A stretch of 64,000 nucleotides of DNA, taken from the NCBI RefSeq assembly GCF_000296465.1, contig NZ_JH815203.1:905189-969188 (forward strand), read 5' to 3'. The DNA comes from Barnesiella intestinihominis YIT 11860 (GTDB lineage: Bacteria; Bacteroidota; Bacteroidia; Bacteroidales; Barnesiellaceae). The stretch's first letter is position 1; each line of letters starts with the position of its first letter. Shown here one piece after another: positions 17,369 to 62,050 of the stretch. A program made the position numbers and the translations under genes. The notes beneath the pieces are model-generated. The model worked only from the letters and a program-made list of their open reading frames with translations. It searched no databases and was not told the DNA's origin.

Positions 17369-17992
17369 TCCTCTCTCCCCCTGTGTTCCTACAAGGAATA
17401 TAGGGGGAGTGCCCGTAGGGCGAGGGGGTTAAAACGACAGTAGAGCCAAAATATTGAATCTCACCCTCCTCCCCTGTGTTTTGCAACGCAAAATATAGGG
17501 GAGGTGTCCGAAGGACGGAGGGGTTAAAAAAGAAAGTTGAATAAAACCGAAAAAAGGACTGGTTAATTCCGCCTTTATCGGGCGGCGAAGACGCAAGGAA
17601 GACGGAGGAAAAAGGGCGAGGACTGTTTGTGCGAAGCGAGTTCCGCAGACCCCGACGACGACCGAGGCGACGAGCCGAAAAGCCCGATAACTGCGGCGGC
17701 GCTTCTTGGTTCGTTCTTCTCGCTGCTGAGAAGAATGAACAACGATCTTTCAACCCCTCTCCTCAGAAACTACCGTTCCTTCGGTCTCTCCCCTATATTC
17801 TGCGTTGCAAAACACAGGGGAGAAGTATAAAATCTATCTCTCCACCCTAAAAGGAGAATACCCCTTAACCCCCTCACCTATATCCTGCGGCATTGTAGGG
17901 TATTCACACACTCCCTCCTACCGTGTCCCGTAGCCTTACGGGGTGTCGCAAAGCGATAGGGGGAGGTGGCACGAAGTGCCGGAGGGGTTAGA
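17369..17992. repeat. Cluster of mosaic hairpin repeats between pfkA and rel
   Basis: At least four units of the window's GC-rich hairpin family. Two inverted-orientation units lie at 17369-17432 and 17463-17527. A third variant at 17749-17826 has stem-loop CCGTTCCTTCGG, and a fourth at 17871-17992 is again reversed, ending with a GGCAC-TTC-GTGCC type hairpin. Each unit has a small stem-loop next to an AACCCCTC edge and a larger CCTCCCCT/AGGGGAGG-bounded hairpin. The whole gap 17258-18090 holds no credible gene. Confidence 0.75.
17575..17745. repeat. GC-rich dispersed Bacteroidales intergenic repeat
   Basis: A GC-rich block inside the repeat cluster, unlike its flanks. In one forward frame it would read SEFRRPRRRPRRR and GGASWFVLLAAEKN, short strings I remember as recurring spurious hypothetical proteins in Bacteroidales genomes. 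All frames are short or overlapping and no start is convincing. I treat it as a non-coding dispersed repeat. Recall of the family is from memory and could be wrong. Confidence 0.45.
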
Positions 17993-18089
17993 AAATACCG
18001 GTAGGGAGAAAGTTAGAATGTTTTTCTGAAAAGAAAATCGACAGGTTCGCCACACCGATTCGGCAATTCGCCTCAATTCTCAAATAAAA

Positions 18090-18121
18090 TTTGCATTTGC
18101 TCCCGACTTGTTTTATCTTTG
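18090..18121 (+). promoter_or_regulatory. Promoter of rel (-33 TTTG, -7 TATCTTTG)
   Basis: TTTG at 18090-18093 and TATCTTTG at 18114-18121 with a 20-base spacer, a good match to the Bacteroidales vegetative promoter. The start codon is at 18142. Confidence 0.65.
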
Positions 18122-18141
18122 TTTTTCTTAGATTTCGAACT

Positions 18142-20385
18142 ATGGAAACGTCCGATCAACAATACACCAACGAAGAGCAACTTATCGAAGATAAATTTCA
18201 AGAACTGCTCAACGGATATCTCAACTCCAACCACCGGAAGAAAGTCGAGATTATCGAGCGTGCGTTCAAATTTGCCAAAGAAGCCCACAAGGGAATACGC
18301 CGACGATCGGGCGAACCCTACATACTGCACCCTATCGCCGTAGCTCGTATCGTCAGTCAGGAAATAGGTTTGGGCTCTACATCGATATGCTCCGCCCTGT
18401 TGCACGACGTTGTAGAAGACACCGAATATACCGTCGAGGACATCGAGAACCACTTCGGGAAAAAGATAGCATCCATCGTCGACGGGCTCACCAAAATATC
18501 GGGCGGTATTTTCGGCGACCAAGCATCGGCTCAGGCCGAGAATTTTCGGCGGCTGTTGCTCACCATGTCCGAAGACATTCGGGTAATCCTCATCAAAATG
18601 GCCGACCGCCTGCACAACATGCGCACGCTCGGTTCCATGCTCCCCAGCAAACAATATAAAATCGCTGGCGAGACACTCTATATATATGCCCCGTTGGCCC
18701 ACCGTTTAGGACTGTTCGCCATAAAGACCGAGTTGGAAGATCTCGCTTTCAAATACGAACACCCCGAGGCTTACAACCAAATCAAGCAGAAAATCGCCGA
18801 GACCGAAGAATCGCGCCAGCAAATTTACAACAACTTCTCCAAGCCGATTGTCGCGAAGCTCAAAGAAATGGGACTCGAATTCGAGATGAAAGCCCGGGTA
18901 AAATCCATCTATTCCATTTGGAACAAAATGGAATCGAAACACATACCTTTCGAGGAAGTCTACGACCTCTATGCGGTTCGTATCATTTTCAAATGCCCCA
19001 ACGAGGCCGACGAGAAAAAAGAGTGCTGGGCCATTTACTCGGTCATCACCGACATCTACAAACTGCACCCCGAACGCACCCGCGACTGGGTGAGCCGCCC
19101 CAAAGCCAATGGATACAAAGCTCTGCATCTCACGGTCATGGGTCCCGACGGCAATTGGATAGAAGTACAAATACGAAGCGAAAAAATGGACGAGATCGCC
19201 GAACGGGGATTCGCCGCCCATTGGAAATACAAAGTGGGAAACTCCGACGAAGAGTCGGAACTCGACATCTGGCTGAAAACCATCAAAGACATTCTCGAAC
19301 ACCCCGAGCCCAACGCCATCGATTTTCTCGACACGATAAAGCTCAACCTGTTCAGTACCGAGATATTTGTCTTTACGCCCAAAGGCGAGCTCATCACATT
19401 GCCCAAAGACGCCACGGCGCTCGATTTGGCTTTCACCCTGCACTCCGACCTCGGCTTCCATTGTATCGCCGCCAAAGTAAATCACCGGCTAGTACCGCTG
19501 AACCAAAAACTGCATAGCGGCGACCAAGTGGAAATACTCACCTCCAAATCGCAAACGCCCAAAGAGGAATGGCTCAACTTCATCACCACGGCCAAAGCCC
19601 GAAGCAGACTGACGGCGTCGTTGCGGAAAGACCGGCGAAAAATCATAGCGAAAGGAGAGAAAATACTGAAAGACTTTTTCGAAAGCAATCACATCGAATA
19701 CAACAACGATGTAGTAACCAAAATATTAAGCAACCTCGGCATACGACATCGGGACGATCTGTTCTACAAAATAGGAAATGACGAGATTACCCCCAACGAA
19801 AATATCAAAAAAATCATCAAGGAAAAAAGTCAAAATCCTTTCATGCGGTATCTGAAACTTTCGTTCGGCAGCAACAACGGGAAAAACGAACAGCCCAAAC
19901 CCGTCACTCCTCAGCAACTTACGATAGACCGCAAACAGACCTACATTCTGCGAGACGAGAACGGAGTGAAAAACTATAAAGTAGCGGATTGCTGTTGCCC
20001 GATACCCGGTGACGACGTCTTGGGATATGTGGAAGACGACGAAACCGTAGTCGTGCACAAAAGGGAATGTCCCGTAGCCATGCGACTGAAATCGAGCTTC
20101 GGCCCACGGTTGGTGTCCACGCAATGGGAAGCCAGCGAATCGCTTTCCTTTCCCGCCAAGATAGAGATACAAGGTATCGACCGGATAGGGATTCTCAACG
20201 AAATCACCCGGGTGATTTCCAATGAATTGATTATCGACATGAGAGGACTCACCATAAAAGCCAACGAAGGCGTATTCACCGGGACGGTCAACATCATGGT
20301 GCACGACACCCGCGTCGTAGAATCGCTTTGTAATAAATTACGTAAAATAAAGGGCGTACAGAAGGTCGCACGCTGTAAAGAATAA
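18142..20385 (+). CDS. rel: Bifunctional (p)ppGpp synthetase/hydrolase Rel
   Basis: 748 residues from METSDQQ. The frame is open 17 codons upstream, but those lie within the promoter. Domains in order: HD hydrolase (His88-Asp89 in LLHDVVEDT), RelA/SpoT synthetase (YDLYAVRIIF from 274, then KPKANGYKALHLTV-type substrate loop), TGS (about 400-460), a Cys-rich helical/zinc-finger region (ADCCCPIPGD) and a C-terminal ACT domain (about 670-748). It makes and degrades the stringent-response alarmone and should be the main such enzyme here. The HD motif is intact, so hydrolysis is expected. An HD phosphodiesterase gene follows 11 bases later. Confidence 0.95.
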   Translation: METSDQQYTNEEQLIEDKFQELLNGYLNSNHRKKVEIIERAFKFAKEAHKGIRRRSGEPYILHPIAVARIVSQEIGLGSTSICSALLHDVVEDTEYTVEDIENHFGKKIASIVDGLTKISGGIFGDQASAQAENFRRLLLTMSEDIRVILIKMADRLHNMRTLGSMLPSKQYKIAGETLYIYAPLAHRLGLFAIKTELEDLAFKYEHPEAYNQIKQKIAETEESRQQIYNNFSKPIVAKLKEMGLEFEMKARVKSIYSIWNKMESKHIPFEEVYDLYAVRIIFKCPNEADEKKECWAIYSVITDIYKLHPERTRDWVSRPKANGYKALHLTVMGPDGNWIEVQIRSEKMDEIAERGFAAHWKYKVGNSDEESELDIWLKTIKDILEHPEPNAIDFLDTIKLNLFSTEIFVFTPKGELITLPKDATALDLAFTLHSDLGFHCIAAKVNHRLVPLNQKLHSGDQVEILTSKSQTPKEEWLNFITTAKARSRLTASLRKDRRKIIAKGEKILKDFFESNHIEYNNDVVTKILSNLGIRHRDDLFYKIGNDEITPNENIKKIIKEKSQNPFMRYLKLSFGSNNGKNEQPKPVTPQQLTIDRKQTYILRDENGVKNYKVADCCCPIPGDDVLGYVEDDETVVVHKRECPVAMRLKSSFGPRLVSTQWEASESLSFPAKIEIQGIDRIGILNEITRVISNELIIDMRGLTIKANEGVFTGTVNIMVHDTRVVESLCNKLRKIKGVQKVARCKE

Positions 20386-20396
20386 CCCGTAGAATC

Positions 20397-22532
20397 ATGG
20401 ATAAAAACCGTATACAAAAATTCCTGTCCAGCACACGTGTCCTGCAATTTGTCTTTTTCGTGGCAGCAGTGACATTGGTTACCTATTTCTTCCCGAGAGA
20501 AGGAAAATTTCGTTACACCTTTCAGGAAGGGAAACCGTGGAAGTACGGATTGCTCACCGCTCCGTTCGACTTTCCCGTTTATAAAGACGAAGCCGTCATT
20601 CAACAAGAACGCGACAGCATCATGCTCGACTTCCAACCGGTCTTCTCACACAACGAATCGATAGAGAAAAAGTCCGTCGACGACTTCGAAAAAGCATTGA
20701 GTAACTATACGGAAATGTCTATCCCGCCGACTCTCCGCAAGAACTTGGTCCAAGCTCTGCGAGAAGCCTATCGGAAAGGAATCGTCTCTTCCGAAGCATA
20801 CACCCAACTGCAATCCGGAAAATTCAAGGAAATACGAATCCTCGAAAACAATGTCGCGCGCGAAATACCGGTATCCGAACTGCAATCCGCACGGGAAGCC
20901 TACGAGAACATGCTCAATAAATTCCCCGACTCCTACTCGCATCACATCTTACAAACCTGTAACCTGAACGATTTTCTAAACACGAATATCGCATTCGATA
21001 GTATTACGACCGACCGGCTCAAAGACAATCTGTTACAACGAATCGCTCTCTCCGACGGTATTGTTCAAGCCGGAGAACGTATTGTCGACCGGGGCGAAAT
21101 CATCACGCCGCAAACCTATCGCATTCTCAAATCGCTCGAAACCGTCACCTTGAAAAAAAGCGTCGGCAATGACCACCGTGGTTACACCATACTGGGACAA
21201 ATCATCGTATTCACCTGTCTCTTTTCTTTTTTCTATCTGTTCTTGGCACTGTTCCGTCCGCAGACTTTCAACGAGATGCGTACCCTCGGCTTTATGATGA
21301 TGCTCATCGTGGGCATCTCCCTGATAGCTTTTTTCCTTTCTGAATTTCGGTTACAAGGCATATATTTGGTTCCGTTCGCCATTATTCCCATTATCGTGGT
21401 CACCTTCTTCGACTCGCGCACCGCACTCTATGTACACCTCATTACGGTACTTATCTGTGCTTTTACGGCGCCGTTCGCACTCGAATTCATCTTCTTGCAG
21501 CTTATCGTAGGCATGACCGCCATCGACAGCCTCAGCGACCTTTCTCGCCGCTCCCAGCTCATGCGCTGCGCCCTGCTCGTCTTCCTCGCCTACTGCTTTG
21601 CCTACGTGGGATATACACTCCTTTCCGAAGGCGACCTCTCGAAACTGAATTACAATATGTTCATCTATTTCGGAGTCAATTGTGTATTTCTGCTGTTCGC
21701 CTATCTCCTTATCTATATATTCGAAAAGGCCTTCGGGTTCATCTCCACAGTCACGCTGGTCGAATTGTCCGATGTGAACAATCCCATATTGAGACAGTTA
21801 TCCGAAGAGTGCCCCGGAACCTTCCAACACTCCCTGCAAATCTCCAACTTAGCGGCCGAGGCGGCCAATAAAATAGGAGCGAAGGCTCAATTGGTTCGTA
21901 CCGGAGCCCTTTATCACGATATCGGGAAACTCAAAAATCCGGCATTCTTCACCGAGAATCAATCGGGATTCAATCCGCACACACCGCTCTCCTTCGAACA
22001 AAGCGCACAAATCGTCATCTCCCATGTGAACGACGGACTTAAAATGGCCGATAAACTACGATTGCCCCAAGCTATCAAAGACTTTATCTCCACGCACCAC
22101 GGACACGGGAAAGCAAAATTCTTTTACAACTCCTTCTGTAACAAATACCCCGACCAACCCGTAGACGAATCGAAATTCACCTACCCCGGTCCCAACCCGT
22201 TCACGAAGGAAACGGGAATACTCATGATGGCCGATGCCGTCGAAGCCGCTTCGAGAAGCCTCAAAGAATACACCAACGAAAGTATCTCGCAACTCGTCAA
22301 CCGCATCATCGACTCGCAAGTCGCCGACGGTCTCCTGCGCGATACCCCCCTCAGCTTCCGCGATGTGGAGACGATCAAAGCTACCTTTATCGAGAAACTC
22401 AAAACCATCTATCACACCCGCATTAGTTATCCCGAACTGAATAAAAACGGGAAAAACGAGGAGGAAAAAACAGACAAGGAAACAACAAAAGCAGACAACA
22501 ATGCTCCCTCTCCAACTGAAATAAAGAAATAA
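20397..22532 (+). CDS. 7TM HD-domain phosphohydrolase, PgpH-like
   Basis: 711 residues. One N-terminal membrane helix (about 14-33), a large extracytoplasmic region (7TMR-HDED type, to about 265), a bundle of about seven helices (270-455) and a cytoplasmic HD domain with HD at 507-508 (GALYHDIGKL), HGHGKA and ADAVEAASR. Proteins of this architecture hydrolyse cyclic di-AMP in Gram-positive bacteria (PgpH); the same substrate is likely but not proven in Bacteroidales. It is co-transcribed with rel, which joins two nucleotide-second-messenger enzymes. The last 35 residues are Lys/Glu-rich and disordered. Confidence 0.85.
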   Translation: MDKNRIQKFLSSTRVLQFVFFVAAVTLVTYFFPREGKFRYTFQEGKPWKYGLLTAPFDFPVYKDEAVIQQERDSIMLDFQPVFSHNESIEKKSVDDFEKALSNYTEMSIPPTLRKNLVQALREAYRKGIVSSEAYTQLQSGKFKEIRILENNVAREIPVSELQSAREAYENMLNKFPDSYSHHILQTCNLNDFLNTNIAFDSITTDRLKDNLLQRIALSDGIVQAGERIVDRGEIITPQTYRILKSLETVTLKKSVGNDHRGYTILGQIIVFTCLFSFFYLFLALFRPQTFNEMRTLGFMMMLIVGISLIAFFLSEFRLQGIYLVPFAIIPIIVVTFFDSRTALYVHLITVLICAFTAPFALEFIFLQLIVGMTAIDSLSDLSRRSQLMRCALLVFLAYCFAYVGYTLLSEGDLSKLNYNMFIYFGVNCVFLLFAYLLIYIFEKAFGFISTVTLVELSDVNNPILRQLSEECPGTFQHSLQISNLAAEAANKIGAKAQLVRTGALYHDIGKLKNPAFFTENQSGFNPHTPLSFEQSAQIVISHVNDGLKMADKLRLPQAIKDFISTHHGHGKAKFFYNSFCNKYPDQPVDESKFTYPGPNPFTKETGILMMADAVEAASRSLKEYTNESISQLVNRIIDSQVADGLLRDTPLSFRDVETIKATFIEKLKTIYHTRISYPELNKNGKNEEEKTDKETTKADNNAPSPTEIKK

Positions 22533-22631
22533 TCGATAAAAATTCTATTCCTCTTTAACAGGCTGTCAAAATATCATTCTCGTTAGACGAACTTATGAAA
22601 ATAAGCAAATGATAGGAACAACATATAATCC

Positions 22632-23378
22632 ATGAAACAATACGAAGCAGTCATTGAAACATTAGATAAATTAGGTGGTGTAGCCACATTGGGAGACTTA
22701 AACTCAGAAGTTTTTAAAATCCAAGAATGTGAATGGAAAACAAAAACTCCATTCGCATCAATCAGACGCATAGTTCAACAAACTAAGGGTATTTATAAAA
22801 TCAAACCCGGATTATATGGCCTTGAAAAATACCGAAAACAAAACGAAGAAAGAGGAATTATTCCTGAAACAGAAAAGAACAAAGACTCCGAAATACAAAG
22901 ATCGTTCAATCACGCTTACTATCAAGGGCTACTGGTGATAATAGGTAATTTGCGTAATCTGAAAACGTTTATTCCAAATCAAGACAAAAATAAAAAATTT
23001 TACGATGGGAAAACGCTTCAAGAACTCTCTACACTCAAAAAATTACCCAATTACTCCTACCCCGCATTAATAAATCGAAGTGCGATGATTGATACCATTT
23101 GGTTCAATGAACGCAATATGCCTCATTCGTTCTTTGAAATAGAACACTCGACAGATATCCAAAACTCGCTCTTAAAATTTAATGATTTGCAAGATTTTTA
23201 CGTCAGAATGGCCATAGTGGCAGATGCCAAACGAAAATCTGAATTTGAAACCAAACTTTCATATCATGCATTCGACGAGTTACGGTTAAACAAGCGCGTC
23301 TCTTTTTTAAGTTATGAAGCTCTTGTTAAACAATATGAAATGGAAATAGAGAAACAATCTCTTGATTTTATACTATAA
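22632..23378 (+). CDS. HTH plus PD-(D/E)XK-like nuclease, accessory to restriction system
   Basis: 248 residues. Residues 1-67 look like a winged helix of the HARE-HTH type (conserved W-K-T-K-T-P and a closing G-x-Y-G-L). Residues 140-190 carry IDTIWF (Asp154), then FFEIEHST (Glu169, Glu171, His172), a pattern resembling the active site of PD-(D/E)XK nucleases. It is AT-rich relative to flanking housekeeping genes and faces the restriction enzyme gene tail to tail, 20 bases apart. It may be a second nuclease or a control component of the R-M locus. Fold and role are inferred from short motifs only. Confidence 0.55.
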   Translation: MKQYEAVIETLDKLGGVATLGDLNSEVFKIQECEWKTKTPFASIRRIVQQTKGIYKIKPGLYGLEKYRKQNEERGIIPETEKNKDSEIQRSFNHAYYQGLLVIIGNLRNLKTFIPNQDKNKKFYDGKTLQELSTLKKLPNYSYPALINRSAMIDTIWFNERNMPHSFFEIEHSTDIQNSLLKFNDLQDFYVRMAIVADAKRKSEFETKLSYHAFDELRLNKRVSFLSYEALVKQYEMEIEKQSLDFIL

Positions 23379-23398
23379 CATTAGCCATACCATAGAAA

Positions 23399-25553: not shown

Positions 25554-25559
25554 GAATTG

Positions 25560-25567
25560 CAAAGATA
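25560..25567 (-). promoter_or_regulatory. -7 element for the methyltransferase, giving a very short leader
   Basis: TATCTTTG on the minus strand, ending seven bases before the ATG at 25553. If used, transcription would start at or next to the start codon, so the mRNA would be leaderless or almost so. No -33 TTTG at the expected spacing. Confidence 0.4.
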
Positions 25568-25637
25568 ATATATTTTCCTTTTTTCCTGCCCATCACCTTC
25601 CAAAACATCGTTTCGTATCACCCTGCCATAAAACGGG

Positions 25638-27713: not shown

Positions 27714-27749
27714 AAAACGTTTTCCGTTACCCAAACGCACCTTGTCGCA

Positions 27750-28130
27750 ACGAACCCCTCCGTCACTACGTGCCACCTCCCCTATATTTTGCTATGCAAA
27801 ACACAGAGGAGGAGGTTAATACTTTCCGACATATTGTGTTTGTCCTTCTTCCCTGCCGTGTACCGTAGCATTACGGGGTGTTGCGTTAGCCATGTAGAGA
27901 AGGTGGTACGTAGTGATAGAAGGGTTGAAAAACACCATCTTATCAGTCTGTTTATATCAGATATTTAACCCCCTCGCCCTACGGGCACTCCCCCTATCTC
28001 ATCTGCCATGAGCAGAGGGAGAGGAGACCTGAATCTGTCACCTCCACGGCCGGTATTTTCTAACCCCTCCGGCACTTCGTGCCACCTCCCCTATCTCGGC
28101 TCATCGCCGAGCAGAGGAGGAGGTGAAAGC
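27750..28130. repeat. Mosaic hairpin repeats downstream of terminase
   Basis: Three linked forward units. Unit A at about 27754-27820 (stem GTCAC/GTGCC with a mismatch) is joined by the conserved linker to unit B at about 27845-27930 (CCGTAGCATTACGG). A CCCC-type unit follows with stem GCCC-TAC-GGGC at 27976-27986, then another unit A with GGCAC-TTC-GTGCC at 28071-28083 and a second hairpin CTCGGC-TCATC-GCCGAG. The same order with the same linkers recurs at 44.9-45.3 kb. No gene is seen here. Confidence 0.75.
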
Positions 28131-31304: not shown

Positions 31305-31386
31305 AACCAATTAAAAATCAAGTCATTAAAGAGAGAACAGATTTACAAACGAATTTAATATACAATAAACATTCAATAAAACCATT

Positions 31387-39119: not shown

Positions 39120-39700
39120 AGTGGAGAGTTCCTCTGTTAGGGATATTTCTTTAACCCCTCCGTCACTTCGTGACACCTCCCCTATATTTTGCACTGCAAA
39201 ACACAGGGGAGGAGGGTAATACTTTCCTGTGTATCGTGTTTGTTCTTCTCCCCCTATTACTGGGCGACACCCCGTAATACTATGGGACACTGCAGGGAGG
39301 AGAGTAGAAATCTTTCAATACATCGCTCCACCGTTGTTTTAATCTTCCGGCTCTACGAGCCTTCTCGCCCAATCGCACATACGTGCGCAGAGGAGGAGGA
39401 GTGTGTGAATACCCTACAATACCGCAGGGTATAGGTGAGGGGGTTAAAAAGCATTCTCCTTTTTGGGTGGAGAGATAGATTTTACACTTCTCCCCTGTGT
39501 TTTGCAACGCAGAATATAGGGGAGAGACCGAAGAAACAATAGTTTCTGAGGAGAGGGGTTGAGGAAGATAGCATATAAGATTTTTGATTGTAGAATTTAA
39601 CCCCCTCGCCCTACGGGCACTCCCCCTATATTCCCTTACGGAAACACCCCGTAATGCCACGGGACACGGCAGGGGGAGAGGATTGAAACGTTACTTTGAG
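39120..39700. repeat. Mosaic hairpin repeats after thioredoxin gene
   Basis: Unit A with stem GTCAC-TTC-GTGAC at 39162-39174 and inner hairpin TTTTGCA-C-TGCAAAA (39187-39201) bounded by CCTCCCCT (39176-39183) and AGGGGAGG (39205-39212). It is followed by the TAATACTTTCCTGTGTATCG linker and unit B (about 39245-39305). Then come reverse units at about 39395-39450 and 39480-39560, and a forward CCCC-type unit at 39600-39680. No credible gene occurs in 39050-39989; the rest is AT-rich spacer. Confidence 0.75.
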
Positions 39701-40660: not shown

Positions 40661-41010
40661 CATACCCCCTCGTCCTGCACCTCCCCCTATCTTATCTGCG
40701 ATGAGCAGAGGGAGAGTATTAAAATGTCACTTTGAATGGCCTTTCTGTGCTTTCTTTTTGCTTTGTGAGTACTTTCTATTCCTTTACAGAAACATAGGGA
40801 GAGAGTGTGTGATGCTTTGATATGCCTCCTCTGCTAAGGATATTTTTAACCCCTCCGTCACTTCGTGACACCTCCCCTATATTTTGCACTGCAAAACACA
40901 GGGGAGGAGGGTAATACTTTCCTGTGTATCGTGTTTGTTCTTCTCCCCCCTATTGCTGGGCGACACCCCGTAATACTACGGGACTCGGCAGGGAGGAGGT
41001 TCAAAATACC
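40661..41010. repeat. Mosaic hairpin repeats and an 80-base duplicated linker
   Basis: A degenerate CCCC-type unit at about 40666-40715 (its first stem has lost the right arm) is followed by a block at 40727-40812 that recurs nearly identically at 43368-43448. An intact unit A follows at about 40850-40915 (GTCAC-TTC-GTGAC), then the conserved linker and unit B to about 41000. The remaining gap to 41171 shows nothing coding. Confidence 0.7.
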
Positions 41011-43043: not shown

Positions 43044-43690
43044 TTTAACCCCCTCGCCCTGCGGGCACTCCCCCTATCTCATCTGCGATGAGCAGAGGGA
43101 GAGGATTAAAAGCGTTGCTTGTCACAATCCGGCGAGTTTTCTATGCAACAAGACAAAACATTCTAACCTTCTCCCCTGCCGTGTCCCGTGGTATTACGGG
43201 GAGTTGCATTAGAAATATAAGAGAGACACCGAAGATACAGTAGTTTCTTAGGAGAGGGGTTGAAAGGATTTCATAAAATTTTTGGCTGTAAAGATTAACC
43301 CCTCCGTCCTGCGGACACCTCCCCTATCTCATCTGCGATGAGCAGAGGGAGAGGATTAAAATGTCACTTTGAATGGCCTTTTTGTGCTTTCTTCTTGCTT
43401 TGTGAATACTTTCTATTCCCTTACAGAAACATAGGGAGAGAGTGTGTGATATTTTGATATGCTTCCTCTGCTATGGATATTTTTTACCCCTCCGTCCTAC
43501 GGACACCTCCTATATTTTGCTATGCAAAACACAGAGGAGGAGGTTAATACTTTTCTGTGTATTGTGTTTGTTCTTCTCCCCCGCCATGTCCCGTAGTATT
43601 ACGGGGAGTTACGTTAGTAATATAGGGGAGACACCGAAGATGCGGTAGTTTCTTCGGAGAGGAGTTGGGGATATGACAATCCTATCTGAT
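43044..43690. repeat. Mosaic hairpin repeats between luxS and flavodoxin
   Basis: Forward CCCC-type unit with stem GCCC-TGC-GGGC at about 43058-43068, then a unit-B-like stretch (CCGTGGTATTACGG), and a third unit with GTCC-TGC-GGAC and a CTCAT-CTGCG-ATGAG hairpin at about 43305-43350. The 80-base block shared with 40727-40812 follows, then a further unit A with GTCC-TAC-GGAC at 43494-43504, its linker and unit B. No gene is seen between 43029 and 43848. Confidence 0.75.
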
Positions 43691-44924: not shown

Positions 44925-45330
44925 AACCCCTCTCCGAAGAAACTACCGTATCTTCGGTGTCTCCCCTATATTACTAACGTAACTCCCCGTAACGCTACGA
45001 GACACAGCCGGAGAGAGGTTGATATCCGCTTCTGTTTCCTTTTCTGCCAGTATTTTTTTCAACTCCCTCGCCCTACGGGCACTTCCCCCTATCTCATTTA
45101 CGACGAGCAGAGGGAGAGGAGACCTGAATCTGTCATCTCCACGGTCGGTATTTTCTAACCCCTCCGTCCTGCGGACACCTCCCCTATATTTTGCTACGCA
45201 AAACACAGAGGAGGAGGTTAATACTTTCCTGTGTATTGTGTTTGTTCTTCTCCCCTGCCGTGTCCCGCAGCATTGCGGGGTGTCACACAGCGGTATAGGG
45301 GGAGTGCCCGAAGGGCGAAGGGAGCCCCCG
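44925..45330. repeat. Mosaic hairpin repeats between DUF2023 and the aminotransferase
   Basis: A CTCTCCGAAG unit with hairpin CCGAAGA/TCTTCGG, then a unit-B half, then the same three-part series as at 27.9-28.1 kb. That series is a CCCC-type unit with GCCC-TAC-GGGC (about 45070-45080), the conserved GAGACCTGAATCTGTCA linker, unit A with GTCC-TGC-GGAC at 45166-45176, the TAATACTTTCCTGTGTATTG linker, and unit B. No gene is credible in 44718-45442. Confidence 0.75.
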
Positions 45331-46839: not shown

Positions 46840-47140
46840 ACAGGGCTAAGGGGTTAGATTTTACAATAAAAAATCCTATACGCTGTCTTTTTTTTAACCC
46901 CTCTCTTCGGCGCTTTCGCTCCTCTGTATCTCCCCTATATTTTGCATCGCAAAACACAGGGGAGAAGGTTAAATACAATCCATCTCATTCGCTAAAACAA
47001 TGTGACAGAAAGTCATTAAAATCTTTCCCATGCCGTGCCCCGCAGCATTACGGGGTCTTTCCGTGTAATATAGGGAAGAAGAACAAACACGATACACAGA
47101 AAGGTATTACCCTCCTCCCCTGCTCATCATAGATAAAATA
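46840..47140. repeat. Mosaic hairpin repeats upstream of the aminotransferase
   Basis: A decayed reverse CCCC-type unit near 46840, a unit with hairpin TCTTCGGCGC plus the CCTAT-TTTTGCATCGCAAAA hairpin at 46893-46972, and reversed unit B and linker at about 47030-47130. The gap 46637-47460 holds no gene. Confidence 0.65.
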
Positions 47141-47148
47141 GGGGGAGC

Positions 47149-47272
47149 ACCCGATAACAGTAACAGAACTGTAAATCAAACTCTCCGAAAAGACTGGAAT
47201 ATAGTTATCGACAAAGGTTTCATCGCTAAAATTCAGGTCTACCCCACGGATTTTCTACTGACCCAAAACCGG
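47149..47272. repeat. Imperfect direct repeat, copy 2 (right of aminotransferase)
   Basis: Same sequence as 45326-45432 with scattered substitutions and a short insertion; shares the AACAGTAACAGAACTGTAAA start and the TTTTCTACTGA end. Confidence 0.65.
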
Positions 47273-51139: not shown

Positions 51140-51169
51140 AAGTCGATAATATTATAATGCAGAGAGCGC

Positions 51170-51199: not shown

Positions 51200-51216
51200 C
51201 ACTTTCTCGTTACTTT

Positions 51217-54914: not shown

Positions 54915-54958
54915 GCTTCACATATTGAGCCCGGAAAGGACCGAGCAGTTTACGGCTG

Positions 54959-54983
54959 CAAAGATAACACAAATACAAAGATA
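54959..54983 (-). promoter_or_regulatory. Two adjacent -7 elements of the ABC exporter
   Basis: CAAAGATA occurs twice, at 54959-54966 and 54976-54983, reading TATCTTTG toward the gene. Neither has a -33 TTTG at exact spacing. Confidence 0.45.
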
Positions 54984-55059
54984 GCAGAAACAGGAGCTCA
55001 AAAAGTTTCCAACCGACCCGACAAAGAGCATTTTTCCGGGGAATAGCTATTGTACTTTT

Positions 55060-55640
55060 CTTTCGGAGACACCTCGAAAGGGGAAGAGGTTAATGCCTGT
55101 CTCTGTTTCTACTGCGGGTATTTCTTTAACCCCCTCGCCCTACGGGCACTCCCCCAATCTCATCTGTGATGAGCAGAGGGAGAGGAGTCCTGACTTCTGC
55201 CACCTCCACTGCCAGTATTTTCCAACCCCTCCGTCACTGCGTGACACCTCCCCTATATTTTGCATGGCAAAACACCCCCGTAAGGCTACGGGACACGGCA
55301 GGGAGGAGGTTTTAAATACCACACCAATGATGTCATTCCAATCCCTCGCTATTCTAAGGAAGGAGTATGAAATATCCAGCAATGCCACAATACAACAAGG
55401 AGAAAAGATTAAAATGGTAATTCCCATTTCGACACAAGGATAAATTTTACACCTCTTCCCTGTTTCTTTAACCTCACCGGCTCTACAAGTCACCTCTCCT
55501 ATCACATCTACGATGAGCAAGAGGGAGAGGAGACCTGACTCTGTCACCTCCACTGCCGGTATTTTCCAACCCCTCCGTCACTGCGTGACACCTCCCCTAT
55601 ATTTTGCACAGCAAAACACAGGGGAGGAGGATAATGTAAT
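55060..55640. repeat. Mosaic hairpin repeats, including a hybrid unit
   Basis: CCCC-type unit with GCCC-TAC-GGGC at about 55138-55148, linker, then a unit at 55223-55310 that starts as unit A (GTCAC-TGC-GTGAC at 55233-55245) but switches inside the second hairpin into the right half of unit B (CTACGGGACACGGCAGG). A decayed unit lies near 55380-55530. An intact unit A follows at 55567-55630 with the same first stem. No gene is credible in 54915-55877. Confidence 0.75.
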
Positions 55641-55877
55641 TCTTGTTTTCTCATTTCAGAAAGATGAAATATATCGTTCTTCTTTATAAGGCAATAAATC
55701 AATGCCACGGCCTTCGCCTCTATGAAAGCACTTGTTTCCGATTCTTTCGAAATAAAATCTTGCACAGGCAAAATTATTATAATATTTTTGCACGGATTGC
55801 GAAAATAGGCTTATCGTCACATCAAAAGACGGCCAAGCCGTCATTTTCGTTTATCTTATTTTTACCGATAGCGAATT

Positions 55878-56609
55878 ATGGGCGAAGCCGTGCACACTTT
55901 ATCGATTATCATTCCCGCATATAACGAGGAAAAGACTATTGCAAAACTGCTGCAACGGGTACTCGATGCCGATCTAGGGACCGGCATCGAAAGGGAGTTG
56001 ATCGTGGTGAACGACTGCTCGACCGATTCGACAGAACAAATCGTCGAAGATTTTATCGCCCGCCATGCCGACGCTCCTATCGTTTACTTGAAGCACGAAA
56101 GGAATTATGGGAAAGGCATGGCCGTCCGCACGGGCATACGAGCCGTAACGGGCGATTATATCGTCATGCAGGATGCCGACCTCGAACTCGATCCGAACGA
56201 TTTCAAGAAAATGCTTCCTTTTCTTTTATCGGGCGAATACCATGTGGTATATGGCTCCCGATTTTTAGCAGAGGAAAATTCACATACTTATTTCAGTTAT
56301 CAACTGGGCGGGAAATTTTTATCGGTAATGACCAACATTCTTTATCGTCAGCACATCACCGACGAACCCACTTGTTACAAAATGTTCACCGCCGATTTGC
56401 TGAAATCGATTCCTCTCGACTGCGAGGGATTCGAATTTTGTCCCGAAGTGACGGCAAAAGTTTCGAGACTGGGCTACAAAATCAAAGAAGTGCCCATTCG
56501 TTATTATCCCCGCTCTATCGAAGAGGGGAAAAAACTGCGTCTGAGCGACGGTTTGAAAGCGATAGGCACGCTGTTGAAATATCGTTTCTGGAAAATACCC
56601 GAATCATGA
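55878..56609 (+). CDS. Family 2 glycosyltransferase, polyprenyl-phosphate sugar transferase type
   Basis: 243 residues, no membrane helices. GT-A fold marks: LSIIIPAYNEEKTI, VVNDCSTDST, ERNYGKGMAVRTG, and MQDADLELDP carrying the DxD metal-binding motif. It resembles dolichol/undecaprenyl-phosphate mannosyl- or glucosyltransferases (Dpm1-like), which load a sugar onto a lipid carrier. Its stop overlaps the start of the next gene (ATGA), so they are translationally coupled. The product is probably used by the GT-C-like protein two genes on. Confidence 0.88.
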   Translation: MGEAVHTLSIIIPAYNEEKTIAKLLQRVLDADLGTGIERELIVVNDCSTDSTEQIVEDFIARHADAPIVYLKHERNYGKGMAVRTGIRAVTGDYIVMQDADLELDPNDFKKMLPFLLSGEYHVVYGSRFLAEENSHTYFSYQLGGKFLSVMTNILYRQHITDEPTCYKMFTADLLKSIPLDCEGFEFCPEVTAKVSRLGYKIKEVPIRYYPRSIEEGKKLRLSDGLKAIGTLLKYRFWKIPES

Positions 56610-57178
56610 AAAATAGCACCACAAGCAAAAAAAACACACCTTCCACCAAGAAGGGTACTGCAACGCCTCAAAAAGAGGGAATCTCTTTTTCATGGGTAGC
56701 AAAGAACATTTTTGCCGTTGTCATCGTCCTGTTTCTGCTAAACAAATTCGTCCTCGACGTACAACCGGGTTACAACTGGGCATACAACATGCTTCAAAAA
56801 AACTTGGAGACTATACGTCATTACTCCCGTACGACGACAGACAACCGCTTTGAAATGAAGCTGGGACTTTCTCATGTGTATCTGCGGTACGTGAAAGAGA
56901 GCACTCCCGAAAACGCCGTTATCTTGTTACCGGGAAAAGAGGCTTTTTACCCCGAAGGAGAAGAACGTATATTCTCGGGCGAACCTTATAACAAACTATG
57001 GGCTATCCGGTTCTTATATCCGCGCCGAGTCATTATCCCATCGGAGTTGGGTAAAACTCCTTGGAGCGAGAAAATCACCCATGTAGCTATCGTCAACGGT
57101 CGCGGATACGAATATCTCGACTACGAGGTTGAACAAAAAGCGCCTCATGCCGTATTGCCCATGCACCTAAAACCGTAA
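56606..57178 (+). CDS. Single-pass membrane protein in glycosyltransferase operon
   Basis: 190 residues from MKNSTTSKKN. The frame is open far upstream inside the GT2 gene, but the ATGA overlap marks the start. A basic N-terminus, one helix (about 32-49), then a periplasmic domain of about 140 residues with the motif AVILLPGKEAFYP. I recognise no family. Its place between a GT2 and a GT-C-like gene suggests an accessory of the same pathway. Confidence 0.7.
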   Translation: MKNSTTSKKNTPSTKKGTATPQKEGISFSWVAKNIFAVVIVLFLLNKFVLDVQPGYNWAYNMLQKNLETIRHYSRTTTDNRFEMKLGLSHVYLRYVKESTPENAVILLPGKEAFYPEGEERIFSGEPYNKLWAIRFLYPRRVIIPSELGKTPWSEKITHVAIVNGRGYEYLDYEVEQKAPHAVLPMHLKP

Positions 57179-57183
57179 CCATC

Positions 57184-58563
57184 ATGTTAGTAGTATCAGG
57201 AATCATATTGACTTGCCTGTCGGGTCTTTTATTAACAGGAGTCATCGGGACGCGTTTTTCGTGGACCGAACGCATAGGATTGTCTTTCCCTCTGGGTATG
57301 ACGCTGCAAACCGTCGTGATGGCTTTGCTCGACTTAATGCATATTCCCCTGACCAGTTTTTCGGTTTTATCAGCAGGAGCCGTAACATTCGCCCTATTGA
57401 TGTTTATCGTAGCCCATTACCGAGGATTCGAAAGTTTCCGTATCACCTCGGCTATGCTCGATGACTGGAAACAAGCCAACTTGGTATGGGTATTGCTCAT
57501 CATACTCATCGGTTATTGCGAATACATGAATTTCTCGAAATGCATGTTTTTCCCTCCCAGCGACCGGGACAGCCTCGCGGCATTCGACACCTTAGGTTTC
57601 GTGGCGGCACAAGACCACACGTATATGCGCATGAGCTTGTTCGATGCCGATTACAATCCCTCGATACACCGCGCCGGAGGTAGCATAGCATACGCTCCTT
57701 TCGTACAAATGAGCTATGCATACGTCTATATATTAGGAGCCGAAACATCGAAGTCGATACCGGCGTTGATGTATTTGTTCTTTGTCATTGCTTTCTACGG
57801 AATTTTGAGACGAAATACCGGGAAAACCGTCGCCGCACTGTCTACTCTGTTTATGATGATGGCTCCCGAAATGCTCGCATTCTCGTCGTTATCGACCACC
57901 AACGTCATGCAAGCCATTTTCGCAGGGCTGGGTATCGCTTATACCGCCAGTTGGCTACGCAGCCGCAACGACGACGAATTGTATGCAGGGGCGTTATTGT
58001 TGGGCTCCAATATGTGGTGTCGAAACGAGGGTATCGTATTCATCGGCGCGGCTTGTGTGATATTGCTGATCGATTGCATACGCCGCAAGAGTTACCGAAA
58101 AGGATTGTACTTTACCGGATTGTCCCTGCTCCCGGCCATTATCTGGTTTATTTACATGAAAATCGGTGGCTTATATACCGAAGGCATGGCTATTACCCGC
58201 CTGTTCTGGGACGGGGAGAAAGCGGGATTGATCGTAAACGGCTTTTGGGCTCTGTTTACCAATCCCATATATTATGGCTGGACATTCTCGGTATTCGCCA
58301 TTTTTATTCTCGGGAACAGCTGGTTCATGATTAAAAGGAAAGACAACCTCGCTTTATTGGGAATGATTGTACTGAGCATCGTATTCTACGGACTCGTCGT
58401 TTACCACGTGGACTACGTATGGGATTCCATACAAAACGTATTGGCCTATTCGGCAAAACGATTCTTTTTCTGCTTCGTACCGATGTGCTGGTATTTCGCT
58501 GCCACCACACAAATAGCCCGAAAAGGTTCGGAATACATAGAGCGATTTCTATCGCTAAAATAA
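57184..58563 (+). CDS. Polytopic membrane protein, GT-C glycosyltransferase-like
   Basis: 459 residues with about 11-12 transmembrane helices. A first large extracytoplasmic loop contains PPSDRDSLAAFD with two acidic residues, the usual position of the catalytic site in GT-C enzymes (GT39/GT83-like). Such enzymes take sugar from a polyprenyl-phosphate carrier and transfer it to lipid or protein. It starts five bases after the preceding gene. Specific family not recognised; the role follows from topology and operon. Confidence 0.65.
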   Translation: MLVVSGIILTCLSGLLLTGVIGTRFSWTERIGLSFPLGMTLQTVVMALLDLMHIPLTSFSVLSAGAVTFALLMFIVAHYRGFESFRITSAMLDDWKQANLVWVLLIILIGYCEYMNFSKCMFFPPSDRDSLAAFDTLGFVAAQDHTYMRMSLFDADYNPSIHRAGGSIAYAPFVQMSYAYVYILGAETSKSIPALMYLFFVIAFYGILRRNTGKTVAALSTLFMMMAPEMLAFSSLSTTNVMQAIFAGLGIAYTASWLRSRNDDELYAGALLLGSNMWCRNEGIVFIGAACVILLIDCIRRKSYRKGLYFTGLSLLPAIIWFIYMKIGGLYTEGMAITRLFWDGEKAGLIVNGFWALFTNPIYYGWTFSVFAIFILGNSWFMIKRKDNLALLGMIVLSIVFYGLVVYHVDYVWDSIQNVLAYSAKRFFFCFVPMCWYFAATTQIARKGSEYIERFLSLK

Positions 58564-58575
58564 GACACGGATTTA

Positions 58576-58769
58576 AGAAGCTGTTTTAAATTTATTGAGA
58601 ATAATATTATCATTGCAAGCAGGTATGTTCCGGCCATATTGAGCCCCTGTCTCGCATCTTGAATCCCTTGATTTTTGTCAATAGCCCGCTATTGACTGCA
58701 TATCTCGGACTCCAATCTGCTTCAAACATAGGTCTCAATCTGTCTCGGAATAAATTTAAAACATCTTCT
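58576..58769. mobile_element. MITE-like element or IS remnant with 21-bp terminal inverted repeats
   Basis: AGAAGCTGTTTTAAATTTATT begins at 58576 and its inverted copy (20 of 21 bases identical) ends at 58769, a 194-base element. The inside has no intact ORF; read on the minus strand it gives a short peptide starting MFEADWSPRYAV that looks like a decayed transposase start, but I cannot name the family. It lies between the glycosyltransferase operon and the outer-membrane protein gene. Confidence 0.55.
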
Positions 58770-58872
58770 AAATATTAGCCTAAAAAATGTAAAAAAGCGA
58801 GTGGGCATTTAAACTTTGGCGGGGTGTCAAGGTCTTATAAACGTTGTGATCAATAGATTGATTTTTTTTAAG

Positions 58873-61680
58873 ATGAATAAGAGAGGTTTTATTGCCCTAT
58901 TTCTGTGTATTTTTTTATCGTCCATCGCGCAGAGCGTAGCGGCACAATTTACAATTTCGGGTATCGTTAAAGACAAAAACGACAATCTGCCATTACCACA
59001 GGTGAGTATCCGGTTGTTATCGGCGAAAGACAGCACATTCGTTACTGGGATTTCCAGCAAAGACAACGGAACATTTTCTCTGAAAGTCCCGAAAGCGGGG
59101 AGTTATATTGCCGCATTTTCGTTCTTGGGATATAGAACCGCATACGAACCCGTGCAGCTATCGAAAGGGCAGCCCCGAAGAAATTTGGGAGATGTTCTAT
59201 TGGGTAGCAACGATGTATTGTTGCAGGAAGCCGTAGTGGTGGGTAAAGCTCCCGAAGTGGTAGTTAAAGAAGACACTGTGGAGTTTAATGCCGACTCTTA
59301 TAAAACACAGCCCAATTCTGTCGTCGAGGATTTGTTGAAAAAACTGCCGGGCGTCGAGGTGGATAGCGAGGGAAAAATAACCCATGCGGGAAAGGAAATT
59401 ACCAAAATATTAGTGGACGGTAAAGAGTTCTTCTCGGACGACCCCAAAGTGGCTACCAAAAACCTGCCCGTGGACATCATCGAAAAGCTGCAAGTCGTAG
59501 ACCGAAAATCGGACCTAGCCCGCTTGACCGGAGTCGATGACGGGGAGGAGGAAACTGTTATCAACCTGACTATAAAAGAGGGTATGAAACACGGTTGGTT
59601 CGGTAATGTAACAGGCGGATACGGTCTGGACGGACGATATGAGGCCGGGGCTATGCTCAACCATTTCTTCGGTGACAACCAAGTGACTATCCTTGCAGGT
59701 TCGAACAACACGAACAATATGGGATTCACCGATATGGGCGGAAGCCGGTTTCGCCGATTCGGGGGCATGAACGGTATCAACACCAGTCACAATGTAGGGG
59801 TAAACTTCAATGTCGGTAAGGGAGATGCGTTCCGAGTCGGCGGAGATGTCAGTTACAACAACAGTAATCGAGACGTTTTGCAACGCACCGAACGGCAAAA
59901 CATGTTCGAAGACAGTACCTCGTATTACAGCGGGTATAACAAAATGAAAGACAACGGGCAAAACATCAGAGGAAATTTCAGACTACATTGGGAAATAGAC
60001 TCTCTGAATACACTCGAATTCCGTCCGAGATTTTCCGTGGCTCTTTCCAAATCGGACAGCTATGATTCGGCTCTTACTACTGCCGGCGACATAGCCCGCA
60101 GTAAAGTAAATTTCAGCGAAAGCGACAACCACAATAAGGGTACAGGGTATGATTTATCGGGCGAATTGATTTATAATCATAAATTCCGTAACCGTCCGGG
60201 ACGCTCGTTCAGTATACAAGCGCAATATAGTTATAGCGACACAAAAGAGGACGGGTGGACCAAAGCCCTCTATAAATATTACATGCTCGACAAAGACAGT
60301 ACGCTCGACCAAATGGACGACAATCACACGTGGAGCAATGGCTACGGTGCACGGTTTACTTGGACAGAACCGTTGGGCGACGTGAAGAAAGGACGTTTCC
60401 TAACATTTTCCTATCGGTTTCAAGCCAGTTTCAATAATGCCGACAAATATACTTATGACATCTTGAACGATCCTTTCGCCATACCTTACGACACGGTGCG
60501 AAACGATGAGCTGAGCAACAGTTTCCGTAACGATTACTATTCACACCGAGCACAAATCGGATTCAAGCAAGTGACGGCCAATTATACCTACGATATCGGG
60601 GTGGCTGCCGTCCCTTCGAGTTCTCAATCTATCGACTTGATAAACAGCGACCGTAATATATCCAAGCGCACGGTATTCAACGTAGCACCCTATCTGCGTT
60701 ACCGCTACAAAATGGGAAAACAACGCTCCTTGCGTATCGACTACCGGGGCTACTCGTCCCAACCGTCGATGAACCAGTTGCAACCGGTCGAAGACCGTTC
60801 GGATCCCTTGCGTATCGTCGTGGGTAATCCCGAACTGAAACCGGCTTTTCAAAACTGGTTCCGCGCCCGTTTCAACGACTATGACGAGAAGACCCAGAGA
60901 GCTATCATGGCTATGGTCAACGGAGGATTCACGACCAACAGCATCATCTCGGAGACTACGTATGATTCCCAAACCGGAGGACAACGGACAACCTATCGCA
61001 ACGTAAACGGGGTATGGAATGCCGCCGGAATGTTTATGTATAGCACCCCTTTTCGAAACAAGCACTGGCAATTAAACAGTTTCAGCAGAGTCAGTTACAG
61101 TAACAGCGTAGGTTATAATAACGGTGTCCGTAACGATGCCGGTTCGTTCAATGCCGTAGAAAATTTAGGATTGGCATTCCGATCGGATTATTTCGATGCC
61201 GAACTTCGGGGAAACTATCGTTATGCTTTGGCAACCAACAGTATGCAAAGTCGGAACGATCAAAGCACCCATAATTACGGAGGCACATTCAATGTAAACG
61301 GCTATCTGCCGTGGTCGATAACATTAGGAACCGATATAACTTACAGCGGATCTGCCGGATATTCTGCCGGATACAATACAGAGAGCTGGTTGTGGAACGC
61401 ACAGGCTTCTTATCAATTCCTGAAAGGGAAAAACGCCACCATCGCTTTGAAGGTGTACGACATCTTGGGACAAAGGAACAGCATACGACGAACCGTCACG
61501 GGTAACTATATCCAAGATGTGGAATATAACACACTCGATACTTATGGATTGATAACCTTCACCTATCGATTCAATACATTCGGCGATAAGAAACCCGATA
61601 TGGATCGTTTCGACCGAGGGCCTCGCGGATATGGACCACCGCCGGGACACCCGGGTCGTCCGGGAGGGAGACGTTGGTAA
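58873..61680 (+). CDS. Outer-membrane beta-barrel receptor-like protein
   Basis: 935 residues from MNKRGFIALF; a longer frame from 58816 adds 19 residues with no signal character. Signal peptide (1-24), carboxypeptidase-regulatory-like domain (about 26-110; GTFSLKVPKAGSYIAAFSFLGY), plug-like domain (about 120-225; VEDLLKKLPGVEVD) and a large OMP beta-barrel. It ends with a 20-residue Gly/Pro/Arg tail (GYGPPPGHPGRPGG) rather than a terminal aromatic strand. It belongs to the TonB-receptor-related barrel family of Bacteroidota without a clear substrate; not linked to a SusD gene. Confidence 0.85.
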   Translation: MNKRGFIALFLCIFLSSIAQSVAAQFTISGIVKDKNDNLPLPQVSIRLLSAKDSTFVTGISSKDNGTFSLKVPKAGSYIAAFSFLGYRTAYEPVQLSKGQPRRNLGDVLLGSNDVLLQEAVVVGKAPEVVVKEDTVEFNADSYKTQPNSVVEDLLKKLPGVEVDSEGKITHAGKEITKILVDGKEFFSDDPKVATKNLPVDIIEKLQVVDRKSDLARLTGVDDGEEETVINLTIKEGMKHGWFGNVTGGYGLDGRYEAGAMLNHFFGDNQVTILAGSNNTNNMGFTDMGGSRFRRFGGMNGINTSHNVGVNFNVGKGDAFRVGGDVSYNNSNRDVLQRTERQNMFEDSTSYYSGYNKMKDNGQNIRGNFRLHWEIDSLNTLEFRPRFSVALSKSDSYDSALTTAGDIARSKVNFSESDNHNKGTGYDLSGELIYNHKFRNRPGRSFSIQAQYSYSDTKEDGWTKALYKYYMLDKDSTLDQMDDNHTWSNGYGARFTWTEPLGDVKKGRFLTFSYRFQASFNNADKYTYDILNDPFAIPYDTVRNDELSNSFRNDYYSHRAQIGFKQVTANYTYDIGVAAVPSSSQSIDLINSDRNISKRTVFNVAPYLRYRYKMGKQRSLRIDYRGYSSQPSMNQLQPVEDRSDPLRIVVGNPELKPAFQNWFRARFNDYDEKTQRAIMAMVNGGFTTNSIISETTYDSQTGGQRTTYRNVNGVWNAAGMFMYSTPFRNKHWQLNSFSRVSYSNSVGYNNGVRNDAGSFNAVENLGLAFRSDYFDAELRGNYRYALATNSMQSRNDQSTHNYGGTFNVNGYLPWSITLGTDITYSGSAGYSAGYNTESWLWNAQASYQFLKGKNATIALKVYDILGQRNSIRRTVTGNYIQDVEYNTLDTYGLITFTYRFNTFGDKKPDMDRFDRGPRGYGPPPGHPGRPGGRRW

Positions 61681-61799
61681 AACGGCTCAGTAGAAAATCG
61701 GTGAGGATAAACATGAATTTTAACGATGAAATCTTTGTTGATAGCCATGTTCAGGTCTCTTAGGAGACGGGGTAAAAAAGATAGAAATCTTTGATCGTA

Positions 61800-62050
61800 G
61801 AATTTAACCCCCTCGTCCTGCGGGCACTCCCCCTATCTCATCTACAATGAGCAGGGGAAGAGTGTCGATACCTTGATGTGTTTTCTCTGTTGTGGATATT
61901 TATTTAACCCCTCCGTCCTGCGGACACCTCTCCTATATTTTGCTGTGCAAAACACAGAGGAGGAGGGTAATACTTTCCTATATATCGTGTTTGTTCTTCT
62001 CTCCTGCCGTGTCCCGTAGTATTACGGGACACGGCAGGGAGGAGGGTATA
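61800..62050. repeat. Mosaic hairpin repeats with a 16-bp perfect palindrome
   Basis: CCCC-type unit with GTCC-TGC-GGGC at about 61815-61825, linker, unit A with GTCC-TGC-GGAC at 61915-61925, linker, and a unit B whose arms 62003-62018 and 62023-62038 are perfectly complementary over 16 bases around a GTAT loop. It lies between two convergent genes (the barrel protein and the DUF2027-Smr protein) and may act as a bidirectional transcription barrier. Confidence 0.75.

Follow-up and report, generated by a model that had tools for sequence, protein, structure and literature searches.

Triplex repeats of Escherichia coli, the BoxC or PIT elements, have been known since the 1990s. A 2015 survey, which treats such repeats under the name TMECO and reports them from 262 proteobacterial genomes, with 23 copies in strain MG1655, describes elements in which a C-rich and a G-rich arm are joined by a third tract in mirror repeat; they are intergenic and scattered through many genomes of E. 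coli and other proteobacteria (PMC4666352). According to the text of the same survey, transposase or integrase remnants and genetic mobility activities were never found around TMECO, and its main text makes no mention of DUF559, ycjD or an endonuclease (PMC4666352). Repeats of a similar composition, bearing a short hairpin termed H1, occupy the intergenic regions of a 64,000-nt stretch (the window) at positions 905189-969188 of contig C1 in the 3.44-Mb genome of Barnesiella intestinihominis YIT 11860 (genome G000). Hairpins of this kind are associated with genes of the protein family DUF559, and the repeats are probably non-autonomous (MITE- or REPIN-like) copies and broken ends of mobile elements that encode a DUF559 protein.

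Two other groups of repeats invite comparison. REP, BIME and REPIN sequences with their RAYT transposases (PMC3733652; PMC6006769) are likewise interspersed, high-copy, intergenic palindromes in mosaic clusters and inverted doublets, but the nuclease near the present repeats is predicted to have another fold. Subclass 2.6 RAYTs of Bacteroidetes have been described as flanked by 'atypical secondary structures' (PMC6006769). The Rickettsia palindromic elements are palindromic repeats that also insert in frame in conserved genes (PMC2229807); the in-frame copies reported here carry a whole nuclease domain.

Structure of the repeat unit

The unit is laid out approximately as TTAACCCC(TCC or CTC)-H1-A-C(CT or TC)CCCCTAT-H2-CAGAGGGGAGGAGG..TTAA. 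H1 has a 4-5 bp stem that starts with G-C and, in the units designated A type and CCCC type, a three-base loop; its foot is CCTCC or CCCTC in the 16 window copies that were aligned. H2 pairs a C-rich arm with a G-rich one and carries another small hairpin at the tip. A covariance model (R1) was built from the 16 copies, and matches in the window were accepted when they spanned model positions 1-66 with E <= 0.001. This yielded 27 matches, the 16 source copies included, and weaker matches besides; at least 150 R1 matches were found in the whole genome. With gene boundaries taken from genes picked from the list of open reading frames, all 27 units are intergenic and are spread over nine gaps, eight of which are among the nine largest, where the unit types form mosaic clusters of imperfect palindromes, much as a preliminary description of the window had stated. 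Several forward units are accompanied by a weak inverted partner (27751/27840, 43045/43163, 43483/43568 and 45155/45242), forming doublets of about 170-220 nt. At 797418-798130 of the same contig, R1 matches alternate in orientation with a 250-nt period, as a tandem array of a doublet. No match at the gathering threshold was returned by an Rfam scan of the window.

The H1 stems quoted in the preliminary description are all in place (GTCAC/GTGAC at 39162; GTCC/GGAC at 45166, 61915 and 43494; GCCC/GGGC at 27976; GGCAC/GTGCC at 28071), and the varying inner hairpins TTTTGC/GCAAAA, CTCAT/ATGAG and CTCGGC/GCCGAG were found as well. A pattern search leaving 43494 aside gave 16 distinct H1 stems, 13 on the forward and three on the reverse strand, each readable with a three-base loop. 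Such a loop had been said to be present always; this holds for the A and CCCC types and fails for the wider family, some units of which have a longer or different H1, e.g. near 17865 and 44925.

The stems vary by paired changes. In an alignment of 76 distinct copies found in the genus, 92.2% of cells pair and 68 are double-changed, a count that none of 500 shuffles reached (22.4 +- 3.6); a control with slid partners gave at most 12 double-changed cells. The 15 distinct copies of the window contain 17 double-changed cells against 6.8 +- 2.2 in shuffles. Some measures weigh against a structural interpretation. Counts of pairs that show a double change do not clearly rise above shuffles (3 vs 2.5 for the 15 copies, 4 vs 3.1 for the 76), and neither do counts of pair types (7 vs 7.1 and 10 vs 9.9), so the covariation signal is carried by a small set of pairs that change in many copies. 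Two pairs form poorly: 13-46 is open in 19 of 75 sequences and 55-121 in 40 of 74. The copy alignment was fitted to the R1 model, which favours pairing.

An exact scan for CCCCTCCGTC-N3-7-GACACCTCCCCT, independent of any alignment and made in one genome per species, returned at least 120 stretches with 144 matches inside; the 80 named stretches come from Bacteroidota, Clostridia, Synergistaceae, Anaerolineae, candidate phyla, Sphingomonas and others. For the 98 matches whose core is 7 bases long, the stem pair that follows is A-T in 44, G-C in 34, C-G in 12, T-A in five and another combination in three. It is a Watson-Crick pair in 27 of 30 distinct cores, which none of 10,000 shuffles equalled. 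A slightly shorter pattern occurs in five of 198 Bacteroidota genomes (49 times in B. intestinihominis, and 26, 14, 6 and 2 times in G219, G070, G231 and G089 respectively), and its reversed control in none of the 198. Covariation within the genus and across phyla supports selection for the hairpin structure, as the preliminary description had concluded from paired substitutions.

Mirror symmetry and relation to BoxC/PIT elements

The C-rich edge of the unit repeats the H2 arm in mirror image, CCCCTCC occurring with CCTCCCC and CCCCCTC with CTCCCCC. The mirror is perfect over 7 nt in 61 of 73 parsed copies (76 distinct), 45 of the first kind and 16 of the second; direct matches numbered zero, and shuffled pairings gave a mean of 36.6 and a maximum of 47 in 5,000 shuffles. 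The A and CCCC types thus differ by simultaneous changes in three strands. The preliminary description had missed both this mirror repeat of the inner stem and the association with DUF559.

The C-rich arm, G-rich arm and mirrored third tract are shared with BoxC, PIT and TMECO elements (PMC4666352). Unlike TMECO, the window unit has the H1 hairpin, 11-13 nt, as its second loop and also a longer first loop, and it departs from both the 1-6 nt loops and the consensus of TMECO (PMC4666352). Because the survey considered loops of 1-6 nt, units with H1 as second loop fell outside its search (PMC4666352). Units of the window type also differ from BoxC, PIT and TMECO in occurring in Bacteroidota and several other phyla. 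From its sequence, the H1-bearing unit appears to be a new form of the BoxC/PIT kind.

Association with DUF559 genes

Stop-to-stop open reading frames of at least 70 aa were clustered from 120 loci with the H1 motif, no family having been chosen beforehand. One protein family recurred in nine of the 120 loci (eight assemblies from several phyla), its reading frame overlapping the motif or lying no more than 336 nt away, and the two members scanned matched Pfam DUF559 with E-values of 1e-33 and 2e-28. Among the other clusters, one consists of ABC transporter-like proteins, and in several the members are different reading frames of the same stretches, suggestive of translated repeats. Five motifs, R..LR, E..LW, RRQ, DFYC and ELDG..H, form a signature that is invariant in six aligned DUF559 proteins, and the DUF559 profile matches PDB entry 3hrl, 'Endonuclease-Like Protein', with an E-value of 8.9e-30. 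Sequence and literature together predict that DUF559 is a Vsr-like PD-(D/E)XK endonuclease. Homing endonucleases of the PD-(D/E)XK Vsr-like fold exist. A DUF559 protein of Caulobacter is reported to be Vsr-like, with a link to DNA damage (PMC12907096). The invariant DFYC...ELDG..H signature agrees with such a description; unlike the Vsr-like nucleases described there, DUF559 is here associated with hairpin ends and many gene-less copies (PMC12907096).

A DUF559 match was present in 18 of 33 genomes, nine of the genus and 24 other motif carriers (G040 and G005 being the same genome). Flanking hairpins were then scored by a rule requiring an arm of 6 nt or more made up of C and T only, which was written after inspection of four loci of the motif-carrier set. 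In that set, a hairpin was found anywhere within about 3 kb in 26 of 30 DUF559 loci and in two of 30 loci with a Y1 transposase gene; one place is counted twice among the DUF559 loci, two of these loci are weak, partial matches that lack a hairpin, and the Y1 loci were drawn from an overlapping set of 40 genomes. In the 198 Bacteroidota genomes, DUF559 was detected in 108 and Y1 in 145 (E <= 0.001). A C-rich-arm hairpin lies within 250 nt in 25 of the 30 DUF559 loci taken from these genomes, the loci being the best-scoring and not a random choice, and in none of 30 Y1 loci (Fisher p 5e-12); in 19 of the 30 the hairpins flank both sides. Hairpins more than 500 nt away numbered 15 in the DUF559 loci and six in the Y1 loci. 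Among eight named DUF559 stretches from six organisms, seven have a hairpin within 250 nt, the exception being a cyanobacterial one (L331).

The association is also seen with R1, which was built only from window copies. R1 matches 14 of 59 DUF559 loci (the 60 of both sets minus the duplicate) at E <= 0.01, and none of the 60 Y1 loci. A Barnesiella locus (L210) is among the 14, and the match stands beside the gene in L204, L214, L220, L199, L245, L198 and others. Mirror symmetry extends to the flanks of DUF559, where 74 of 114 arms match in mirror orientation at six or more of seven positions, compared with 40 in direct orientation and 36 for shuffled arms. A BoxC-like pattern, CCTCACCCC-NN-CCCTCTCC, was found in 20 of the 198 Bacteroidota genomes, and its reversed control in none; DUF559 is matched in 16 of these 20 genomes and in 92 of the 178 others (Fisher p 0.018).

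Within the genus, R1 copies number at least 150 in B. intestinihominis, 138 in G005, 31 in G007 and one in G003, and are absent from five of the nine genomes; the preliminary description had foreseen such a search, and it did bring up further copies in relatives. A strong DUF559 match was obtained only in G005, and a weak partial one in G003. On contig C5 of G005, the DUF559 domain (3136-3456) is preceded by a reverse A-type unit (2957-3025) that ends 111 nt before it and followed by a forward CCCC-type unit (3512-3575) that starts 56 nt after it. A single nuclease gene is thus bordered by two of the unit types named in the preliminary description, one on either side. Sequence of about 190 nt is repeated on both sides of the gene with 98% identity and continues as gene-less tandem copies of 213 nt. 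The window units match in kind the putative ends of this DUF559-encoding element.

A DUF559 search of plasmid records also brought up E. coli entries of chromosome size. In E. coli, the DUF559 gene is ycjD, located between sapF and fabI; of 5,426 complete genomes, 3,364 have the ycjD block. A hairpin fitting the published TMECO pattern follows ycjD, 166 nt on (PMC4666352). Hairpins of the ycjD type also occur at zntA-tusA, ypfG-tkt and yjdP-phnP, where they are polymorphic, with forms that include an inverted doublet and shortened hairpins. Between sapF and fabI, genomes have either ycjD and its BoxC-type hairpin or efflux genes after sapF (L335, L337 and L338 in comparison with L336).

DUF559 matches were further noted in other settings. 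In two Sphingomonas records (L201 and L332) the gene occupies the same position, with a GatB/YqeY gene on one side and dnaG on the other, the neighbours in L201 having been recognised by eye, which suggests vertical inheritance there. In a candidate division SR1 genome (L212 and L223) the matches read through several TGA codons, in keeping with the genetic code of this division. In a faecal phage scaffold, MT835749 (L333), the DUF559 match is preceded at about 200 nt by an H1-like unit.

In-frame DUF559 cassettes

In 11 of the 30 Bacteroidota loci, DUF559 lies within a stop-to-stop frame of at least 600 aa. A Pfam check of five loci confirmed the hosts as an Eco57I/type ISP protein (L226), an N6/N4 methylase (L227), leucyl-tRNA synthetase (L228) and methionine synthase (L248, and L225 from the set of 33 genomes); purL and hsdR hosts were recognised by eye. 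At leuS, the C-rich and G-rich flanks of the inserted copy are imperfect, and the rule scores no hairpin there.

The metH comparison covered 18 genes of a single family, with 19 genomes searched at one per genus. Two of the 18 contain hairpin-DUF559-hairpin with the reading frame kept, in place of a short linker that precedes the B12 domain in the other 16. By the C/T-arm rule, none of these 16 plain linkers has a hairpin; in metH, therefore, the hairpins and the DUF559 gene came as one. The linkers are too variable for a target-site duplication to be read.

Origin of the repeats

In the autonomous form of the proposed element, a DUF559 gene would lie near or between ends of the repeat's kind, each made up of a C-rich tract, the short hairpin H1 and the C-rich/G-rich hairpin H2. 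As the tract mirrors the H2 arm, one strand can fold into a predicted intrastrand triplex, with the tract as third strand and H1 as a loop. DUF559 may recognise or cut the folded end, and copying could follow through break repair (cut-and-repair) or during replication, gene-less copies being served in trans or left behind. The B. intestinihominis genome has copies and no detectable DUF559 gene, so its repeats would be relics or be served in trans. From these arrangements we infer mobilisation by DUF559.

Several observations weigh against this origin. A hairpin is missing from five of the 30 Bacteroidota DUF559 loci, among them the leuS insertion, and two of the five could not be placed. R1 accounts for only 14 of 59 DUF559 loci, and for the others the association depends on the less strict hairpin rule. 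Many genomes that lack the exact BoxC-like pattern have DUF559 all the same (92 of 178), and three of the four copy-bearing genomes of the genus (B. intestinihominis, G007 and G003) are without a strong DUF559 match. The tracts are oriented inward relative to DUF559 in 25 cases, outward in 32 and undetermined in 44, and a fixed inward or outward orientation of hairpins round the gene was rejected on these counts. Comparisons for empty sites did not yield a clean one. In eight Barnesiella genomes the intergenic sequence at luxS is too diverged for a target-site duplication or a clean empty site to be read; the alternative E. coli alleles at zntA-tusA, ypfG-tkt and yjdP-phnP hold other sequence, with no clean empty site; and the three genomes without ycjD that were examined have efflux genes at sapF-fabI, hence no clean empty site at that interval either.

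As the principal alternative, the repeats would be fragile sites or insertion targets that predate DUF559; its genes would land in or beside them, and the nuclease would not have made them. The mixed orientation and the lack of empty sites suit this explanation, as do the position of the G005 gene inside a local tandem array and the reported link of BoxC triplex repeats with rearranged loci (PMC4666352). It is nevertheless unlikely, since the 16 uninterrupted metH relatives are free of hairpins at the site, so that hairpins and gene arrived together, and since hairpins stand on both sides in 19 of 30 loci. Somewhat less likely again is a DUF559 protein acting as a Vsr-like structure-repair nuclease against folded or triplex DNA, its pairing with the repeat kept by selection and not by mobility. 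The conserved PD-(D/E)XK-like signature, the match to 3hrl and the Vsr-like Caulobacter protein tied to DNA damage (PMC12907096) would all be expected of such an enzyme. Repair, however, acts in trans and needs no flanking copies, and in-frame insertion of the gene in metH, leuS and methylase genes suits a selfish element better.

Stem covariation and intergenic location could also mark conserved RNA or regulatory elements, such as 3'-end stabilisers or partial terminators, multiplied by recombination and kept for a host function. This is improbable given the patchy presence in the genus (four of nine genomes, with at least 150, 138, 31 and one copies), the same core in distant phyla, an Rfam scan of the window that stayed empty at the gathering threshold and a mirror symmetry that is superfluous for an RNA hairpin. 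A REP/BIME system moved by a Y1 (HUH) RAYT transposase, as suspected in the preliminary description, has the lowest probability of all and is largely refuted. The interspersed, intergenic mosaic of imperfect palindromes does resemble REP/BIME arrays, and a C-rich-arm hairpin was found in two of the 30 Y1 loci of the motif-carrier set; membership in a REP/TnpA_REP system was not supported. The only Y1_Tnp match in B. intestinihominis (L002:2165-2674) lies between lipoprotein-like and TonB-receptor-like genes, recognised by eye, in an operon in which no hairpins were seen, and could have been domesticated. No Y1 match was obtained in 26 of 40 genomes that carry the motif or belong to the genus. 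R1 gave a single chance-level match (E 3.1) over the 30 Y1 loci of motif-bearing genomes and none up to E 10 over the 30 from the 198 Bacteroidota genomes, and none of the latter 30 had a C-rich-arm hairpin within 250 nt. REP units with a RAYT were rejected as a candidate because the unit has no GTAG/GTGG tetranucleotide at its 5' foot and no Y1 gene beside it in the tested loci. CGTC-tagged REPs, which have a CGTC tag, an 8-9 bp stem starting with A/T, a 4-5 nt loop and a CCA tail, were rejected also; H1 is shorter, starts with G-C and has a 3-nt loop, and CGTC is absent from the CCCC-type unit.

If the repeats do derive from DUF559-encoding elements, widespread 'orphan' bacterial repeats would gain a likely source of movement and a large, little-studied domain of unknown function would gain a role. 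REP-like systems would then extend beyond HUH enzymes. A wider proposal, for and against which the balance is even, is that DUF559 proteins define a class of bacterial mobile elements, without a name in the literature searched, that have a PD-(D/E)XK nuclease, triplex-capable hairpin ends and in-frame insertion in essential genes. Both the BoxC/PIT repeats of E. coli and the repeats with H1 in Bacteroidota, Clostridia and candidate phyla would be gene-less derivatives of this class, which would form a counterpart of REP/RAYT with a different enzyme fold. A nuclease family that adjoins BoxC-like repeats in several phyla, and is found together with them in metH, makes the question of their spread directly testable. 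The DUF559-repeat link was not found in the literature searched, which consisted mostly of titles and abstracts with most subscription papers outside it, so that its absence is not proven.

Features of the window

Table 1. Repeat units of the window with their R1 scores; E-values are given for the weak inverted partners.
Feature	Position	Strand	R1 score (bits)	E-value
CCCC-type unit	17368..17432	-	70.3	
A-type unit	17461..17527	-	84.6	
Divergent unit, longer H1	17750..17830	+	41	
A-type edge (GGCAC stem), composite H2	17904..17991	-	38.1	
A-type unit	27751..27819	+	76.7	
Weak inverted partner of 27751	27840..27928	-	12.8	0.14
CCCC-type unit	27965..28028	+	78.4	
A-type unit, CTCGGC/GCCGAG inner hairpin	28060..28127	+	72.1	
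A-type unit	39151..39219	+	83.3	
Degenerate unit	39338..39403	+	21	
Divergent unit, longer H1	39482..39562	-	40.8	
CCCC-type unit, composite H2	39597..39685	+	62.9	
CCCC-type unit, degraded H1	40661..40721	+	46.4	
A-type unit	40846..40914	+	83.3	
CCCC-type unit directly after luxS	43045..43108	+	80.8	
Weak inverted partner of 43045	43163..43263	-	15.5	0.026
A edge with CTCAT inner hairpin	43295..43358	+	76.1	
A-type unit	43483..43547	+	72.8	
Weak inverted partner of 43483	43568..43652	-	15	0.036
CCCC-type unit	45059..45123	+	67.2	
A-type unit	45155..45221	+	85.1	
Inverted partner of 45155 (GCCC/GGGC-like edge)	45242..45324	-	29.5	
Divergent unit	46894..46972	+	49.5	
Degenerate unit	47107..47175	-	23.9	
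CCCC-type unit	55126..55189	+	72	
A-type unit, composite H2	55222..55313	+	51.2	
Degenerate unit	55468..55534	+	39	
A-type unit	55566..55634	+	78.8	
CCCC-type unit	61804..61867	+	69.7	
A-type unit	61904..61970	+	84.2	

Two further features of the window were noted. Positions 17550-17740, between repeat units, appear by eye to be more G+C-rich than their surroundings, and positions 1-264 and 3752-4015 are direct copies of 264 nt with 98% identity.

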